Shown piece by piece: positions 8,628 to 29,534 of a stretch of 56,819 bases of DNA (the stretch's first letter is position 1; each line of letters opens with the position of its first letter). Location: NCBI RefSeq assembly GCF_022763305.1, contig NZ_JALEGT010000023.1:1-56819 (forward strand). The letters are read 5' to 3'. The DNA comes from Marivita sp. GTDB taxonomy: Bacteria > Pseudomonadota > Alphaproteobacteria > Rhodobacterales > Rhodobacteraceae. The notes under the pieces were generated by a model, which was not told the origin of the DNA, ran no database searches, and was given only the letters and a program-made list of their open reading frames with translations. The translations under genes and the position numbers were made by a program.

Positions 8628-9367
8628 AGCGCGTCGTCGAGAAACTCGAGCAGACCTTCCCAGCTGCCTTGATCGGCGGCCAGATCGTAGTCGCTCGACC
8701 CAAAGACCGTGAAGCTGTGACGCGCGCCGCCGAAGATCTCGGCACCGTGAGTGACGCCTGCGGCCTGCAACTGATCCAGCAGGGATGCCAGATCGGCCAT
8801 GCCCGACACCGGATCGGCAGAGCCATGGAACAGCATCACGGGCGCACTGGTGGCCGAGTAATCCTGACCTTCGGGTGTGCCCAGCCCGCCGTGGAAGCTG
8901 ACAAAACCGTTCAGATCGGCCCCCGCACGGGCAGCTTCGAGAACGGCCGCGCCGCCAAAGCAGTAGCCCATCAGCACATGGGTGTCGGTGGCACCGGTGA
9001 TGTTCGCGGCCTCTTCGATGGATCCCATGAGGCGCATGCGGAATTCGTCGCGATCCGCATACATCGCACCGGACAGCGCACGGTTTTCGTCGATGCTCTG
9101 CGGGTTTTCGTCCGCGCCGTAAACGTCGATGGCAAAGGCGGTATAACCCAACGCCGCGAGCATTTCGGCGCGGCGCTCTTCGTAAGCAGTCATGCCATCC
9201 CAATCGTGAACGATCAGAACAGTGCCTTTCGGCTCGATCGCGGTGTTGGTCGCGACGTAGCCTTCATACTCGCGGTCGCCGACGGTATAGCGGTGATACT
9301 CTGCGGAAATCTCGGCCTGCGCGGCGGTGGCGGTCAAGGCCAGTGCGGCCAGACTTGCTCGGAACAT
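8624..9367 (-). CDS. Dienelactone hydrolase family protein (exported)
   Basis: An alpha/beta hydrolase of 247 residues with an N-terminal signal peptide ending in AAQA. The nucleophile motif is GYCFGG (Cys nucleophile, as in dienelactone hydrolase), the acid is in GSADPVSG, and the His is in ARHSF. The start giving MFRASLAALAL is preceded by AAAGGAGAC, and the upstream codons would spoil the signal peptide. It is coupled to the histidine phosphatase gene. The actual ester or lactone substrate is unknown. Confidence 0.83.
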   Translation of the reverse strand: MFRASLAALALTATAAQAEISAEYHRYTVGDREYEGYVATNTAIEPKGTVLIVHDWDGMTAYEERRAEMLAALGYTAFAIDVYGADENPQSIDENRALSGAMYADRDEFRMRLMGSIEEAANITGATDTHVLMGYCFGGAAVLEAARAGADLNGFVSFHGGLGTPEGQDYSATSAPVMLFHGSADPVSGMADLASLLDQLQAAGVTHGAEIFGGARHSFTVFGSSDYDLAADQGSWEGLLEFLDDAL

Positions 9368-9415: not shown

Positions 9416-9468
9416 AAAAAGAAAAGGCTCCTTGCTCGGAGCGCGGGCCGGGCTTGAGCGCCCGGCCC
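9416..9468 (-). terminator. Tandem-hairpin terminator after metK
   Basis: On the minus strand, starting ten bases past the metK stop, a nine-pair perfect hairpin GGGCCGGGC / GCCCGGCCC (9445-9468) is followed by a second hairpin GCTCC / GGAGC (9427-9442) and then CTTTTCTTTTT. This is a strong intrinsic terminator that separates metK from the hydrolase pair. Confidence 0.88.
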
Positions 9469-9477
9469 GGTCATTTC

Positions 9478-10659
9478 TCAGACGGACGCCTTGAGCGCGT
9501 CCACCAGATCGGTGCGTTCCCAGCTGAACCCGCCATCCGCCTCCGGCGCGCGGCCGAAATGGCCATAAGCCGCCGTGCGCTCATAAATCGGCTTGTTCAA
9601 CTGAAGATGCGTGCGGATGCCGCGCGGGGTGAGGTCCATGACCTTGGGGATCGCCGCTTCGATGGCGGAGGCATCGACATCGCCGGTGCCATGCGTGTCG
9701 GCATAGATCGACAGCGGTTTGGAGACACCAATCGCATAGGACAGCTGGATCGTGCAGCGTTCGGCCATGCCCGCCGCAACGACGTTCTTGGCCAGATAGC
9801 GCGCGGCATAGGCAGCGGAGCGGTCCACCTTGGTCGGATCCTTGCCCGAGAAGGCACCACCACCGTGGGGGGCGGCCCCACCATAGGTGTCGACGATGAT
9901 CTTGCGCCCGGTGAGGCCAGCGTCGCCGTCAGGGCCGCCGATCACGAAGGTGCCGGTCGGATTGACCCACCATTCGGTGGCATCGGTGATCCAGCCATCG
10001 GGCAGGGTTTCGCGGATATACGGCTCCACAATCGCGCGGATGTCGGCGGAGCTTTGGCTTTCGTCGGCATGCTGCGTCGAGAGAACGATCGAGGTCACAC
10101 CCACCGGCTTGCCGTTTTCGTAGCGCACGGAGATCTGCGATTTCGCATCGGGGCGCAACAACGGTTCCTGTCCTGATTTGCGCACTTCGGCCAGACGGCG
10201 CAGGATCGCGTGGCTGAATTGGATCGGCGCCGGCATCAGCGCGTCGGTCTCGTTCGTGGCATAGCCGAACATGATGCCCTGATCGCCTGCACCTTCGTCC
10301 TTGTCACCGCTGGCGTTCACGCCCTGCGCGATATGGGCCGACTGCTGGTGCAGCAGGTTGGTGATCTCGCAGGTGGCGTGATGGAATTCGTCCTGCTCGT
10401 AGCCGATATCCTTGATACAGGCGCGGGCGATGTCCGGGATACGTGCCATATAGGTGGCAAGCCGAGCCTGGTCCGACAGCCCAACCTCTCCACCGATCAC
10501 GACGCGGTTGGTCGTGGCAAAGGTTTCGCAGGCGACCCGCGCTTCGGGTTCTTCGGAAAGAAAGGCGTCAAGGATAGCGTCCGAGATACGGTCGCAGACC
10601 TTATCCGGGTGGCCCTCGGACACGGATTCCGAGGTGAAGATATAATTCTGTCGGGACAT
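9478..10659 (-). CDS. metK: S-adenosylmethionine synthetase
   Basis: Makes SAM from methionine and ATP. The 393-residue protein has GHPDKVCD at the N-terminus, [12 protein letters not shown], and the phosphate-binding [16 protein letters not shown]. The start giving [12 protein letters not shown] is set by the riboswitch-associated GGAG ribosome site at 10665-10668. The gene lies after lnt on the same strand, is directly controlled by the SAM/SAH riboswitch in its 63-base leader, and ends at a tandem-hairpin terminator. Confidence 0.98.
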
Positions 10660-10662
10660 GAG

Positions 10663-10707
10663 TGCTCCATTAGGGTCTGCCGTCACGTCAGGAAGCCGTT
10701 GTGACGG
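10663..10707 (-). promoter_or_regulatory. SAM/SAH riboswitch in the metK leader
   Basis: On the minus strand a seven-pair stem CCGTCAC / GTGACGG (10701-10707 with 10680-10686) encloses the loop AACGGCTTCCTGAC. After a short linker comes AATGGAGCA, whose GGAG is the metK ribosome site. Loop, stem and the trailing ATGGAGCA match what I recall of the SAM/SAH riboswitch that Weinberg and colleagues described upstream of metK in Rhodobacterales. In that class the ribosome site pairs into an H-type pseudoknot with the loop CUUCC when SAM or SAH binds, blocking translation. Confidence 0.92.
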
Positions 10708-10722
10708 GAATGATGATCCGCG

Positions 10723-12207
10723 TTACGCCGCGCCGGGGTCCGGGTCAATGGGCTTGCGCCGTTTCCACAAGAACAGGGTCGCAAATGCCACGATCAATGC
10801 ACAAAGCGCGAGCCAATCGCCGGTGCGGCTGTAGAGCAACGGCTTCAACGGAGGCGGCAGCGGTACGTCAAGAAACCCGGCGCGGCCCAGCGGTAGGGCC
10901 TCCACGATTGTGCCTGCCGGGTCGATCATGGCCGAAATGCCGGTATTCGCCACGCGGACCATCGGCAGACGTTGTTCGATGGCGCGCAGCCGGGCCTGCG
11001 TCAGGTGCTGTTGCGGGCCGGCATTGACACCGAACCATGCATCGTTGGTGATCTGGAGCAGCATGGCCGGGCGCTGCGGCGCACCATTGACATCCTGCGG
11101 GAAGACCGCCTCGTAGCAGATCAGCGGCAACGCGGTGCCCAACGGACCAAGGTCGATGAGCGCAGGCCCCGGCCCTGAGGAATAGCCCGACTCGGCGCGC
11201 GCGGCGAGGCCGAGGATGTTGAAGCGAGCAAAGAACGAAGCGGCGGGCATGTATTCCCCGAACGGCACGAGATGGTGCTTGTCGTAGAGATCGGATACCT
11301 GCCCCGCGCTGTCGAGCGTGATGAGCGAATTGTAATACCGTCCGTCTTCTTCGCGCTGGATGCCCAGCACCACCGGTGTGCCTGCGGCGGCCTCTGCAAT
11401 GACGTCGAGCGCCGGGCCTGCATTTTCGAGAAGGTTTGGCACTGCCGTTTCCGGCCAGACGATAAGATCGGGTTTGGGCAGTTGCGCGGTGAAATCCACC
11501 TGCCGGTTGAAAAACAGCGGGATGTAGTCGCGATCCCATTTCTGATGCTGCGGCGCGTTGGGTTGGATCAGACGGACGGTGAATCCGGTTCGGTCCAAAG
11601 ACCCGGGGTACAGGAACATCCCCCCGATAAATCCGTTGAAGCTGACCAGACCCGTGACGAACAAAACGGGAAACGAGCGGGCGGAGATTGCCCAGGCGGC
11701 ACTTGCCGCCAGCAGCAATGTCACCAGCGTCACACCGTGCGGCCCGATGATCGCATGCCATTGCGCGACCGGAGTTTGGGCCCAGACATAGCCCACCAGT
11801 CCCCAGGGGAAGCCTGTCAGGATATAGGCGCGAGCCAGTTCAATGGCCGCCCAGCAGAGTGCGATGCCGAAGGGACCGGGCGACATCCGGCGTCCGGCCC
11901 AGAAGGCGGACGCCCAGAGCAGCGCCAGTCCCGAGGCCAATCCCACAAGCGCAAAAGGGGCCATCCACCCGGTTGCGGCAGCATCCACGGCGAACGGCTC
12001 GACGATCCAGTGCATCGACAGGGCGAAATAGCCCACACCGAAAAGCCAGCCGGTCCACGCCGCAGAGCCTGCGCGTGTATCGCGCAGGACCAGAACGAGG
12101 ATGGCGACCAAGGCTGGTGCCGCGATCCACCACAGATCAAATGGCGCCTGGCCCAATGCAAAGACGCCCCCCAGACAGATTGCGCCAAGGCGGCGGAGTA
12201 CGTGCAT
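10723..12207 (-). CDS. lnt: Apolipoprotein N-acyltransferase
   Basis: Adds the third acyl chain to the N-terminal Cys of lipoproteins in the inner membrane. The 494-residue protein has about six N-terminal membrane helices, then a nitrilase-like periplasmic domain with the Glu in VWPETAVPN, the Lys in YDKHHLVPFGEYMP and the Cys in LICYEAVFP, and a C-terminal helix near residues 465-485. The start giving MHVLRRLGAI follows the corC stop by four bases. Its position between the corC-like gene and metK is the conserved alphaproteobacterial order. Confidence 0.95.
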   Translation of the reverse strand: MHVLRRLGAICLGGVFALGQAPFDLWWIAAPALVAILVLVLRDTRAGSAAWTGWLFGVGYFALSMHWIVEPFAVDAAATGWMAPFALVGLASGLALLWASAFWAGRRMSPGPFGIALCWAAIELARAYILTGFPWGLVGYVWAQTPVAQWHAIIGPHGVTLVTLLLAASAAWAISARSFPVLFVTGLVSFNGFIGGMFLYPGSLDRTGFTVRLIQPNAPQHQKWDRDYIPLFFNRQVDFTAQLPKPDLIVWPETAVPNLLENAGPALDVIAEAAAGTPVVLGIQREEDGRYYNSLITLDSAGQVSDLYDKHHLVPFGEYMPAASFFARFNILGLAARAESGYSSGPGPALIDLGPLGTALPLICYEAVFPQDVNGAPQRPAMLLQITNDAWFGVNAGPQQHLTQARLRAIEQRLPMVRVANTGISAMIDPAGTIVEALPLGRAGFLDVPLPPPLKPLLYSRTGDWLALCALIVAFATLFLWKRRKPIDPDPGAA

Positions 12208-12211
12208 CGGT

Positions 12212-13153
12212 TCAGGCGGACTGTGCGGTGGCTCTTGCAACGTCCGAGGCTTCGCGGGCGCGGGCGGCATCACCAGCCGCTGTCGCCTTGAGCCTGACGC
12301 GCATCCGTTTGATGCGGCGCGGATCGGCGTCGATCACCTCGAACTCCGGGCCTTCGGGGTGAGGAACGACTTCGCCACGTGCGGGCACGTGACCCGCCAG
12401 CATGAAAACCAGACCGCCCAATGTGTCGATTTCCTCGCCGTCGATGTCGTCGTGGTCCGTCAGGTTCAGACCGATCTCGGCCTCGAATTCCTCGAGCGGC
12501 GTGCGGGCAAAGGCGAGATAGACTCCGGGCTTCTCGCGCGAGAAATTGGTGCCTTCGTCCAGATCGTGTTCATCCTCGATTTCCCCGATCACCTGTTCGA
12601 TCAGGTCCTCGATGGTCACGAGGCCATCCACACCGCCATATTCGTCGATCACCAGCGCCATGTGCCGCCGCTCGGTCTGCATTTTGGCCAAGAGCACGCC
12701 GATGGGCATGGAAGGTGGCACGAAAAGCAGGGGGCGCAGCATCTGTTTCAGATCGAAATCGCTGCTGCGGCCGTTGAACCCGTGCTTGAGCGCGAGGTCC
12801 TTGAGGTGCGCCATCCCGATCGGTGTATCCAGCGTGCCGGTATAAACCGGCAGCCGCGTCAGACCGCTTTCGCGGAAGACATTGACCAGTTCGGCCTTGG
12901 TGATGGTATCGGGGACGGAGACGATGTCGGCACGCGGAACCGCCACATCATAGACCCGCATGCGACGCAGGTTCATCATACCGTCTATCGGAGACATCGA
13001 CCGAGAGATTTCCGGCGTCGGAGTCGTGTCGGCCACCTGAGTTGAGCCGCCCATCCAGTTGCGCAGACGTGCAAAGAACCCACGTCCCGGTTGAGTGTCG
13101 TTCGTCTTGAGCGCGCGTTGCGCTGCGTTAGACGAGTCGTCGGTATCGCCCAT
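12212..13153 (-). CDS. CBS-domain protein of the CorC/hemolysin family
   Basis: A 313-residue soluble protein with two CBS domains (about residues 70-205, including the MALVIDEYGGVDGLVTIEDLIEQ segment) and a C-terminal transporter-associated (CorC_HlyC) domain at about 220-295. The N-terminal DUF21 membrane domain of full-length homologues is absent, as in CorC of the ybeY-corC-lnt cluster. Such proteins are linked to magnesium/cobalt homeostasis and membrane integrity. An AGGAAAAA site precedes the ATG. Tightly followed by lnt. Confidence 0.9.
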   Translation of the reverse strand: MGDTDDSSNAAQRALKTNDTQPGRGFFARLRNWMGGSTQVADTTPTPEISRSMSPIDGMMNLRRMRVYDVAVPRADIVSVPDTITKAELVNVFRESGLTRLPVYTGTLDTPIGMAHLKDLALKHGFNGRSSDFDLKQMLRPLLFVPPSMPIGVLLAKMQTERRHMALVIDEYGGVDGLVTIEDLIEQVIGEIEDEHDLDEGTNFSREKPGVYLAFARTPLEEFEAEIGLNLTDHDDIDGEEIDTLGGLVFMLAGHVPARGEVVPHPEGPEFEVIDADPRRIKRMRVRLKATAAGDAARAREASDVARATAQSA

Positions 13154-27400: not shown

Positions 27401-28064
27401 ACGGATTGCTTTTGACCGCGAGACACATCCCTTTGACGGATCGGGCCTCGACCTCGATCAGTTTGACGGGATGGCACAACTTGACCCGTCTGCGATGTCC
27501 TTGCTTACCGAGCTTTACATCGCGTATTTCAACCGTGCCCCCGATGCGATCGGGCTTTACTTCTGGGGCAACCAGTTGGCCGATGGGATGAGCATGGGCG
27601 ATATTGCGTCCCACTTTTTTGATCAGCCGGAAACCCGCGCGCTTTATGGGGACATCGCGGACCCGTCGGACTTCGTCGCAGCCGTTTACCAGAGTGTGCT
27701 GGGGCGCAGGCCGGATGCCGGAGGCCTGTCTTTCTGGTTGGATCATCTGGAAGCCGCCGATGCGGGCGCCCCTGCGCGTTTCATCATGGAGATCCTCGCC
27801 GGGGCCAAGGCGGCAACGGGCAGCCCGGCAGATGCCGCTTATCTGGCCGGCAAGGTGTTGCTGGGCGGGCATTTTGCCGTGACGCACGGCATGTCCGACC
27901 TTGATGACGCGCGGCAGCTGATGGCGCAGTTCGATGGATCGCCAGACAGCCTTCGGAATGCGGTGGAGCGGAGTGACAGCCTTCATTCCGCGATCATGGA
28001 CGGATCGCGGGATGGATTCCTGATGCAGATTGTCGGCGTGTCGGACACGGCCTTCATCATGTGA
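24471..28064 (+). CDS. Large modular secreted protein: glycosidase-like barrel, SGNH-like region, DUF4214-like tail
   Basis: A 1197-residue protein without N-terminal signal peptide. Residues about 1-160 look like a beta-rich entry domain. Residues 165-585 look like a clan-A-type (beta/alpha)8 glycosidase, with SNEVWN (Glu271, acid/base candidate) and VMYEGGTH (Glu467, nucleophile candidate). A Pro/Gln/Glu linker lies at about 590-627. Residues 630-870 resemble an SGNH hydrolase by order (FGNDLFAWGNG at the start, LDDEGHAAPT at the end), but the Ser is absent from the first motif. An RTX-like remnant DGGAGFDTV lies near 930. A DUF4214-like helical repeat with YIAYFNRAPDAIGLYFW covers about 1012-1130. 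The absence of a signal peptide and the C-terminal layout suggest type I secretion. A polysaccharide target is inference. Confidence 0.72.
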   Translation: MEPLTDVFGTQTSAAGLSFGLRGIVDWSVQQPFLDVFKTARDWHGHTASQWGAYSAGDLDRMGVLDAEGWIRDLPAGVDRIETYILTEMPAEALYTAGTYRLSYDGAGEISVFGAEIVSQSAGEIWFNYTPTGSGLVTISISDTDPQNTGNYLRNIEVVKQEHIPAFEAGALFNPLWLDVISDAHSLRFMDWQETNESTIRSWADRPTPGTYSYSQGVPLEVMVALANITGTEPWFNIPWNADETYIRNFATYVRDNLDPDLRAHIEMSNEVWNWMFEQARESAAAAEARFGQDLGDGWVQEYGARSAEMARVLDSVYAGNEDRLVKVISTHTYWPGLEESILDAPAWQALSPANDAPYLSFDTYAITGYFGNSLGTDEKAPAVLDWIARSEAQARQEASAQGLSGSAAQAYIAQHRFDLAVDLAVRELRDGSVTGNAEDSLQGMFELFRYHKAVADAHGLDLVMYEGGTHVVGVGSWVNNDLLTEFFTHLNYSAGMGQLYTELLAGWEAAGGTLFNIFVDVSEPTQWGSWGSLRHLQDSTARHDAVVRFMDSHPAPATMKDGTWDNGEFDFGPIPEPTPGDDGDDTPVVTPQPRPEPQPQPQPQPQPQPEPEPEPQPEPGPAPQPVDAVREYVFGNDLFAWGNGDPEASVPYWTHRLAEAAGTSYATDIQTGMLTRHDDLPPNPHLWVEDVPSSWDPESGQSFAEAGFTQITLSAVNFVQDQSPDSPYWHEPATSPLESALRIIDWTQAQAPGAAINLYETWPEMDGFPASPAAFDAWLDRMTGDWHDWWVDLTQMLQQARPELDIRLISVGPQIAQMLDAPALGLSGLTARDLFLDDEGHAAPTLAFLASLIHYTTLTGQQPPQTLQLPTSIHSAVAQNYSDILQWITDAQGVAPPDRLVGPFAERSVEIATGAMDGDDVIRPEDGARFVDGGAGFDTVNITGDQTAYTLRFDGADIWIDPHGPDGDGLQIRNVERIAFDRETHPFDGSGLDLDQFDGMAQLDPSAMSLLTELYIAYFNRAPDAIGLYFWGNQLADGMSMGDIASHFFDQPETRALYGDIADPSDFVAAVYQSVLGRRPDAGGLSFWLDHLEAADAGAPARFIMEILAGAKAATGSPADAAYLAGKVLLGGHFAVTHGMSDLDDARQLMAQFDGSPDSLRNAVERSDSLHSAIMDGSRDGFLMQIVGVSDTAFIM
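26254..26350 (+). repeat. Pro-Gln/Glu linker repeat
   Basis: Short tandem repeats of the type CCGCAACCCCAG encode a linker of alternating Pro-Gln and Pro-Glu dipeptides. It joins the glycosidase-like and SGNH-like parts of the large secreted protein. Copy number could vary by slippage. Confidence 0.75.
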
Positions 28065-28148
28065 AACCGGCCAGCACAGGATCCGCGCCAATGCGCGCCA
28101 TATTGCGAGGACAATCGGACGGCAGGACATCAGCTGGACCTTTTGCAA

Positions 28149-28192
28149 GACGGGGCGGGATTTGCACCATTGCGCCCAATTCCTGCCCCGTC
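28149..28192 (+). repeat. Inverted repeat after the secreted-protein gene
   Basis: GACGGGGCGGGA (28149-28160) pairs with TCCTGCCCCGTC (28181-28192), twelve pairs with one G-U, around a 20-base loop. It starts 85 bases past the stop. No T-run follows on the plus strand, so it may stabilise the 3' end rather than terminate by itself. Confidence 0.5.
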
Positions 28193-28295
28193 ATCGCACC
28201 GATCCCTTAACAATCGGTGTCCATCACCCGGAGATCTGTCGCATTCGACGCATCTGCGGAATTCGGATTGATTGGAATCGCGCCATGCACGAAAG

Positions 28296-28468
28296 TGTCG
28301 GTGATGGTGGGCGGCGTGTGATGCGCCGTCCGAATAGGGAATACGGTGAAAATCCGTGACTGCCCCCGCAACTGTAAGCGGTGAGTGCTTCGCGCAACGC
28401 CACTGGGCCAGATGGCCTGGGAAGGTGCGAACCACACGATGACCCGCAAGTCAGGAGACCTGCCATCG
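28296..28468 (+). promoter_or_regulatory. Cobalamin riboswitch
   Basis: All core boxes of the B12 riboswitch are present in order: GAATAGGGAA (28332), GGTGAAAATCC (28345), GCCCCCGCAACTGTAAGCGG (28362), GCCACTGGG (28399), CTGGGAAGG (28417) and the B12 box GACCCGCAAGTCAGGAGACC (28441) with TGCC after it. An upstream GGCGGCG / CGCCGTC stem begins the fold. Known members repress downstream genes when adenosylcobalamin binds. The only gene on the same strand downstream is the ~100-residue unknown protein. Confidence 0.96.
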
Positions 28469-28480
28469 CATGAGAACTGA

Positions 28481-28527
28481 ACCCGGGCGGGGTGCACCGG
28501 AGGTCCAGATGCCTTGCCCCCATCCGG
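28481..28527 (+). promoter_or_regulatory. Stem-loop, possible expression platform of the B12 riboswitch
   Basis: ACCCGG-GC-GGGG (28481-28492) can pair with CCCC-AT-CCGGGT around a loop at about 28493-28516. The loop holds GGAGG followed five bases later by an ATG (28509). This is a candidate ribosome site under riboswitch control. No T-run follows, so translational control is more likely than termination. Confidence 0.4.
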
Positions 28528-28583
28528 GTGCGATTCATGCCTGCGGCCTTCCTGTGTCCCGTTCCTGCGCGGAGGGCGCTGAG

Positions 28584-28886
28584 ATGTCGATAGAACGAAC
28601 CCTGACCCAGCTGCAGGTCAATCCCCGAACGCCGGAACGCGCACGGGAAATCGGCCAGTTGGGCTATATGCAATGGCTGGGCGGATTGCCGGCGCAGTCC
28701 TGTTACCTAACCGAGGCCACCTGCGCCTATATGGCTGCAGCGCCGTTCCGGGACACCGATCCGGCGGTTGCCGAATTCTGCAAGCTCCTGAAGGCGTCTC
28801 TGGATGCGCCGCTCTCGCCACTTGATCTGGCGTTGCCGAAACCAAGGCGCAGGGGCGGTGCGAGGGAGCGACGGCTGTCGCTATAG
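28584..28886 (+). CDS. Small protein of unknown function under a cobalamin riboswitch
   Basis: A 100-residue protein I do not recognise. It is helical, with Cys residues at 40, 47 and 66, an aromatic GYMQWLGGLP segment and a basic tail (KPRRRGGARERR). There is no signal peptide and no clear membrane helix. The start ATG 28584 has GGAGGG seven bases upstream. An alternative in-frame ATG at 28509 has GGAGG five bases upstream, lies in the riboswitch platform loop and would add 25 residues with three more cysteines. It is monocistronic, and its stop codon lies in a CTATAG shared with the stop of the convergent aldolase gene. The riboswitch implies a role in cobalamin uptake, synthesis, or a B12-independent substitute. 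Confidence 0.65.
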   Translation: MSIERTLTQLQVNPRTPERAREIGQLGYMQWLGGLPAQSCYLTEATCAYMAAAPFRDTDPAVAEFCKLLKASLDAPLSPLDLALPKPRRRGGARERRLSL

Positions 28887-29534
28887 CGGCTGAGCGGCGG
28901 CCTCGAAAGCGGCGGCAGCGTCCTCGGTCATGGGGTCGGACAGGAGCGATCGAACGAGGTCCGGCGCAAGCGTGAAGCAATCGAGCCCGCGGGCCGCAAG
29001 AGCCACCAGCTGGTCGGATGTGCGCAGCGAGGCCACGAGCACGCGAGGGGTTCCTGCGGCGATGGTCTGCATCTGCAGGAGGTGCTCAAGCGCGGGCAGC
29101 CCCGCCTCGTCCATCCGCCCGAAATAGGGGGCCACGAAGTCGGCACCCAGCGCCTTGGCCACGATCACCTGTTTCGGGTTGTAAACGGCGGTGAGCAGGA
29201 TCGGACCGCCCAAAGCCGTGATCGACGGCAGGGCGCGCAAGGCACCGGGTGTCATCGGGATTTTCACGACCGTGCGCAGACCGGCCACAGCGCCTGCATC
29301 GTAGAGCCGTGCGGCCCAATCGCGATAGGTTTCGACCGGACCGAAAACCTGCCCATGCAGCTCTTGCGCGCCAAGGTCATGGGCGCGACGGGCGAGATCT
29401 GTCCAGTCGATGGTCGGATAGTCGAGACCTGCCCGCTGGGCCAAGAGCGGGTTGGTGGTGATGCCCCGAAACAGGCCCAATGGCATAAGATCGGCCCAGG
29501 CCTCCCGATCCGCCGTGTCGAGATAGAGGTCCAC
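28881..29534 (-). CDS. Transaldolase / fructose-6-phosphate aldolase family
   Basis: A 217-residue class I aldolase of the small TalC/FSA type. Visible are LYLDTADREAW, FRGITTNPLL, VVKIPMT with the Schiff-base Lys, ILLTAVYNPKQ and the Phe/Tyr-rich APYFGRMDE. The start is GTG at 29534, four bases past the PfkB stop. The longer frame upstream is a shadow of that kinase gene. It forms an operon with the PfkB kinase, suggesting joint processing of a phosphorylated ketose. Whether it is a transaldolase or an F6P aldolase cannot be settled by eye. Confidence 0.88.
   Translation of the reverse strand: MDLYLDTADREAWADLMPLGLFRGITTNPLLAQRAGLDYPTIDWTDLARRAHDLGAQELHGQVFGPVETYRDWAARLYDAGAVAGLRTVVKIPMTPGALRALPSITALGGPILLTAVYNPKQVIVAKALGADFVAPYFGRMDEAGLPALEHLLQMQTIAAGTPRVLVASLRTSDQLVALAARGLDCFTLAPDLVRSLLSDPMTEDAAAAFEAAAQPL

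Follow-up and report, generated by a model that had tools for sequence, protein, structure and literature searches.

A conserved small protein with an RRGG tail behind a cobalamin riboswitch in Marivita and its candidate sister family beside glnE

Introduction

MetE and class I ribonucleotide reductase are B12-independent isozymes that are found under B12 riboswitches, and the CbtB-type small cobalt-uptake proteins—membrane proteins with a histidine motif—lie behind such riboswitches as well. The locus of Marivita sp. (Rhodobacteraceae) described here resembles the CbtB case in that a small protein stands under a B12 riboswitch, whereas its protein family bears no conserved histidine and has no Pfam match. 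It was analysed within a window of 56,819 nucleotides, which is the whole stretch of DNA under study.

A large survey of B12-riboswitch targets names B12 synthesis, transport of B12, transport of cobalt, and B12-independent isozymes (PMC3766115). The riboswitch of the window is like other members of the Rfam family RF00174 in bearing a whole aptamer and a complementary loop just downstream, and differs in its unnamed target. Judged by its sequence, this target adds a new and conserved component to the B12 regulon and fits none of the four classes given in that survey (PMC3766115). Among the literature matches listed, covering titles and opening abstract lines, no description of the protein was found. 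The features of the locus are as follows.

28288–28481, + strand: cobalamin riboswitch aptamer RF00174 (full-length cmscan match, covariation in a 16-row alignment)
28364–28369, + strand: CCCCGC, presumed L5, overlapping the loop that Rfam draws before the conserved ACUG
28483–28500, + strand: hairpin immediately 3' of the aptamer with GCGGGG (28487–28492) in its loop, presumed L13 (from sequence; putative function)
28567–28579, + strand: GCGC-GGAGG-GCGC hairpin whose loop presents the Shine-Dalgarno sequence, lying 4 nt 5' of the start codon (sequence and RNAalifold)
28584–28886, + strand: gene for the 100-residue protein, stop included (open reading frame, dN/dS, 75-row alignment A5, AlphaFold2)
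28848–28874, + strand: codons of the RRGG..RR tail, residues 89–97 (conservation in A5)

The riboswitch and its expression platform

The riboswitch itself is ordinary. In the window, cmscan matches model positions 1–189 of RF00174 at 136.8 bits (E 2.2e-34), surpassing the gathering score of 31.5 bits four-fold, and this full-length match bears out the textbook B12 riboswitch that a sequence-only reading had placed ahead of the gene; only the start of 28296 noted there needs correction, as it falls 8 nt inside the actual match from 28288. An alignment of 16 riboswitches—that of the window, those of 12 other family members, and three others—retains the consensus pairs in 93.2% of cells, with the consensus derived from the same alignment, and displays both-side changes in 17 of 34 pairs, a value equalled by 0 of 500 shuffles. 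Within its own genome, this riboswitch is the top-scoring of three RF00174 matches. Of the other two, one (L030) precedes a TonB-dependent receptor and a periplasmic binding protein, and the second (L031) stands before a FecCD permease, an ABC ATPase, a binding protein, and an ExbB-like gene. The window also bears a SAM/SAH riboswitch at 10663–10710 on the − strand (59.7 bits).

The CCCCGC of the aptamer is, by inspection, complementary to the GCGGGG of the downstream hairpin, which is the sequence arrangement of a kissing-loop platform, and a loop CCCCCG is drawn in the aptamer consensus of the Rfam alignment. We take the CCCCGC loop to be L5 and to bear the kissing-loop role, and the riboswitch to be of the class I type with a presumed L5–L13 kissing loop. 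In long-spacer relatives, GCGGG is retained in 39 of 40. Closer to the gene, the 13-mer GCGCGGAGGGCGC, which is present in the window too, recurs identically just upstream of 67 of 78 related riboswitch-preceded genes, and RNAalifold predicts the GCGC-GGAGG-GCGC stem in two subsets with the ribosome-binding site in its loop. The exact recurrence of this presenting hairpin makes translational control probable. In a simple consensus scan of 28050–29000, promoter-like sites were absent, as were terminator-like sites on the + strand. We infer that the kissing loop would act as an OFF-type translational switch, the protein probably being made when B12 is short.

A further motif, GGAG..ATGGACC, is conserved about 69 nt before the gene in many long-spacer relatives (e.g., L074 and L091; GGAG..ATGG in 26 of 39). 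It resembles the start of a leader peptide, but its frame relative to the gene varies among genomes, and it therefore does not belong to the protein.

The 100-residue protein

The gene is real and, as judged from its substitution pattern, under purifying selection. Between the window and 15 Marivita-group loci (L032–L046), dN averages 0.095 and dS 1.25 over the 114 usable of 120 pairs, and the 86 pairs with dS below 1.5 give a mean dN/dS of 0.088. Two forms of the protein had been proposed from the sequence, and the 100-residue form is the correct one: residue 1 is a methionine in at least 90% of the members of A5, the 75-row alignment of the B12-riboswitch protein family. The 125-residue form starting at 28509 was discarded, since in several of the 15 close relatives the 75 nt ahead of 28584 contain stops or are shifted out of frame. 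These selection values, together with the conserved riboswitch association and the ribosome-binding-site hairpin, also refute a random frame whose riboswitch has its real target elsewhere; with nothing but the absent database matches in its favor, this explanation is hardly credible.

The invariant residues of the 75 aligned members are G27, W31, A48, G91, G92, and R97; a further four, C66, R89, R90, and R96, occur in at least 90% of rows. The basic tail that had been read from the sequence alone is hence a real and nearly invariant RRGG..RR element. The protein had likewise been described as cysteine-containing, which is true of the window protein (cysteines 40, 47, and 66), but conservation is confined to C66 and the cysteines as a set are not conserved. 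No histidine or acidic residue is found among the invariant or nearly invariant positions of A5. AlphaFold2 predicts an all-helical model with a mean pLDDT of 86.6 and helices at residues 3–10, 17–33, 41–55, and 60–74 (and 93–99).

These features bear on the possibility of a B12-independent substitute enzyme. Such isozymes are a recognised target class (PMC3766115); however, a protein of 100 residues with an all-helical predicted model, a single nearly invariant cysteine (C66), and neither a conserved histidine or acidic residue nor a conserved polar catalytic set makes a very unlikely enzyme.

The searches by homology and by structure led to no known family. The protein is unrecognised in that Pfam and NCBIfam yield 0 families at E up to 10; ten other members gave nothing above cut-off in Pfam, with one chance-level match at E 0.089, and six other members nothing above cut-off in NCBIfam. 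With E up to 0.001 allowed, Foldseek matched no known structure to the B12-family model or to that of the glnE-adjacent family described below, and a second structural look (VIA), directed at the B12 protein only, returned nothing usable.

Association of gene and riboswitch across genomes

A contig scan gave at least 80 related loci from named genome records, whose upstream regions were scanned with a covariance model built from the 16 riboswitches. A cobalamin riboswitch lies 88–313 nt upstream in 76 of the 80 loci listed, which are not independent of each other: 15 belong to the Marivita group, L093 and L095 are identical in sequence, and at least eight recur, as gauged by the lengths of their contigs, in the other genome collection. 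The remaining four comprise L035, where a contig end truncates the riboswitch, L058, whose riboswitch lies about 3 kb upstream and heads an ABC-transporter operon, and the close relatives L062 and L084, with no riboswitch in the fetched flank. The closest named relative among the matches listed is Marivita cryptomonadis with 94% protein identity.

A second sample of 198 genomes of the bacterial family was drawn evenly and separately, and partly overlaps the first. The A5 profile, which itself includes some of those members, finds the gene in 17 of the 198, in a patchy pattern, and RF00174 precedes all 17 copies, five of which are 25–29% identical to the window protein. Homologues therefore do lie behind B12 riboswitches as had been proposed for checking, both in the loci listed and in the carrier genomes. 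Homologues without any riboswitch, which the sequence-only reading had counted against its proposal, are few in the family (the close relatives L062 and L084, and the remote relatives L115 and L135 with none in the fetched flank); it is the glnE-adjacent sister that has none in any of 37 loci.

With the profile of A6, a wider alignment that includes remote members, 19 matches were obtained at E up to 0.01, and the two extra ones (L135 and L136) stand without a riboswitch. Outside the bacterial family, 385 genomes of the class gave one convincing relative, L115, again without a riboswitch, and three weaker matches (L138–L140, E 9e-4 to 8e-3). L017, a hit of the first family search, was missed by the profile and lacks a riboswitch; it was dropped as a chance match.

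From the riboswitch side, the family is a minority target of cobalamin riboswitches, because it stands behind only 5 of 119 RF00174 matches in 61 genomes of the bacterial family—a set from which the search filters drop some weakly matching cases. To look for hidden members, 114 stretches downstream of these riboswitches were scanned with the A6 profile; two were obtained at E < 0.01, both of them already known, and the window, G044, and G053 make up the other three of the five.

The remote members L028, L029, and L135 adjoin an apparent uvrD gene, as read by eye. The copies L028 and L029 bear a riboswitch near uvrD and L135 does not, which suggests that the riboswitch was lost or gained at this site.

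Gene neighbourhood

The window gene is preceded by the end of a gene for a 1197-residue DUF4214 protein and followed, after 28886, by a convergent transaldolase gene (Pfam TAL_FSA, − strand) and then a PfkB-type kinase gene. As the + strand frame ends at 28886 and the next gene is convergent, the earlier description of a single gene behind the riboswitch on its strand holds. The Marivita group repeats this arrangement, with a convergent PfkB-type kinase gene in 15 of 15 loci and a transaldolase gene in 12 of 15, and neither the window nor these 15 loci have a close co-directional gene after the small gene.

Neighbors were surveyed with ten representative proteins as queries in 82 loci, i.e., the 80 listed and two Cereibacter plasmid loci; all counts are raw frequencies. 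Where downstream genes are present, they are often B12-linked, and those B12-linked genes that most frequently share the orientation of the small gene encode a BtuF-like protein and methionine synthase. A BtuF-like gene lies downstream on the same strand in 14 of 82 loci, with a fragment in L050 in addition, and L060 bears another one upstream on the other strand. The BtuF-like protein has no evident signal peptide at its start in 11 sequences read by eye, and a near relative of it is found in the own genome's btu-like operon. Strong methionine-synthase modules are downstream in nine loci and divergent in two, the weak matches in L054, L069, and L102 being left out of the count. Less frequent are a betaine-monooxygenase-like pair (8/82), a DUF1289-DUF6925 protein (5/82: L058, L070, L074, L112, and L113, with a fragment in L112), and CobW (3/82); in L113, the small gene adjoins those for cobyrinate and cobyric acid synthases. 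No tested neighbor type reaches a quarter of the 82 loci.

Two closer ties were examined and rejected. In the own genome, nothing matches the MetH activation domain, and MetH is therefore not an obligatory partner. A tie to B12 synthesis is not seen either, as a CobN-type chelatase occurs in 15 of 17 carriers vs 152 of 181 other genomes, with no association; this test via PF02514 is blunt, because PF02514 presumably also takes in magnesium chelatase.

In L052, L081, and L108, the start codon of the BtuF-like gene lies directly behind or overlaps the stop of the small gene. This is what one would expect if the small frame were a translated leader that couples the riboswitch to a true downstream target such as the BtuF-like protein or MetH. 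Yet selection acts at the protein level, and the Marivita-group loci have no close co-directional gene to which such a leader could couple, making this arrangement quite unlikely as an explanation of the family.

Two observations concern the neighbors themselves. The betaine-monooxygenase-like pair consists of a Rieske oxygenase and a reductase and has its own cobalamin riboswitch upstream in seven of eight loci:

L047, 7735–7938, − strand
L053, 4317–4518, − strand
L070, 4296–4496, − strand
L074, 8873–9071, − strand
L089, 1991–2191, + strand
L090, 2024–2223, + strand
L100, 1512–1714, + strand

Its best NCBIfam matches are GbcA in three tested cases and GbcB in one, all below cut-off. B12-dependent betaine demethylation is described in PMC12478193, and the pair may be a B12-independent alternative to it. 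Furthermore, the riboswitch-led cluster of the small gene holds ZnuA/ABC-3/ABC-type metal transporter genes in L058 (1785–5303) and L070 (4675–10056), possibly encoding a cobalt importer.

A sister family beside glnE

One of the extra A6 matches, L136, led to a family of small proteins encoded next to glnE, whose alignment is termed A7. A single-sequence search finds this protein in 138 of 149 genomes of the bacterial family. A set of 37 loci in 36 genomes was made up of the 30 top-ranking matches and seven selected regions; glnE, with GlnE named by NCBIfam, is present in the fetched flank of 35, and no riboswitch of any Rfam family is found in the 37. The sister profile gave four matches in 205 genomes of the class, three of them in the same bacterial family and one, weakly, in another. 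Five members compared with Pfam and NCBIfam gave nothing above cut-off. The own genome carries a copy of 87 residues at 9195–9458 of L285 (G000:C83), beside glnE at 9462–12512; the window gene is not beside glnE but sits between the DUF4214 protein gene and the transaldolase gene.

Both families share the RRGG tail and an aromatic..W stretch followed by an LP region, and the hhalign probability between them is 96 with A6 and 86 with A5. Upon removal of the tail, it drops to 61 (A6) and 4 (A5). The A6 scores exceed those of shuffled controls: 40 controls with an intact tail and a shuffled body reach at most a score of 31.8 vs 51.6 for the real A6 alignment, and with the tail removed the shuffled maximum is 14.8 vs 27.4, the tail-less A5 score being 17.6. 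The AlphaFold2 model of the glnE-adjacent protein (pLDDT 87.1; helices 12–18, 24–37, 44–54, and 61–74) has a similar order and similar lengths of helices, as read from each predicted model separately. The glnE-adjacent family differs in its lack of a riboswitch, its gene context, and its invariant C27 and HPM motif—the window protein lacks C27 and H60-P61-M62 at the corresponding alignment positions—and it forms a separate clade, the 13 glnE rows of a 42-row tree standing apart from the remainder at 100/100. The B12-switched family hence appears to be a divergent sister of the glnE-adjacent family, a relationship that is strong with A6 and weak with the tail-less A5.

Proposed function

Taken together, the following sequence of events is proposed. 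Plentiful cobalamin would bind the aptamer at 28288–28481, whereupon the CCCCGC loop would pair with the GCGGGG loop of the downstream hairpin and the ribosome-binding site before 28584 would be blocked. When cobalamin is scarce, this site would be freed and the helical 100-residue protein made, which might serve as a non-enzymatic accessory or adaptor in B12 shortage, with its helical body docking on a partner protein of cytosolic B12 handling and its RRGG..RR tail binding an acidic partner. The gene probably arose by duplication of the glnE-adjacent core protein and was then put under B12 control. We give this explanation as a whole—regulation, family, and adaptor role jointly—a probability of roughly 45%. 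Its regulatory and family part is very probable, while the adaptor role in B12 shortage is a tentative proposal. A new accessory in cobalamin use had already been suspected from the sequence; the conserved B12 control and the often B12-linked neighbors support this in part, leaving the accessory role a putative one.

The adaptor reading is favored; that the protein regulates the use of B12 is almost equally likely, though somewhat doubtful in itself. In that case the RRGG..RR tail would bind RNA or an enzyme and lower B12-consuming metabolism in scarcity, with the glnE-adjacent sister as a regulator of nitrogen control. That the basic tail is the most strongly kept stretch is consistent with such a B12-sparing regulator, as are the small size, the patchy occurrence (17 of 198 genomes), and the position of the sister beside a regulatory enzyme. 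No catalytic residue set is common to the B12 and glnE families, C27 and HPM being absent from the window protein, and the gene stands alone in Marivita, as is possible for a trans-acting factor. However, a basic tail is a widespread feature of little specificity, the structure searches yielded nothing informative, and the shared orientation with BtuF-like and MetH genes in 23 of 82 loci points to a physical role more than to a global one.

Outlook

A conserved target that, on sequence, lies outside the four classes named in PMC3766115 points to an unstudied step in the B12-shortage response of these largely marine bacteria. The link to a near-universal glnE-adjacent protein provides a second, experimentally accessible handle on this unnamed family. 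As a more speculative and rather unlikely extension, small RRGG-tailed helical proteins might form a class, specific to this bacterial family, of nutrient-state adaptors or regulators—with the near-universal copy acting with GlnE in nitrogen control and its duplicate, placed under a cobalamin riboswitch, serving as an effector in B12 shortage by redirecting or sparing the use of B12. If true, the RRGG-tailed effector would add a new functional class to the targets of B12 riboswitches.
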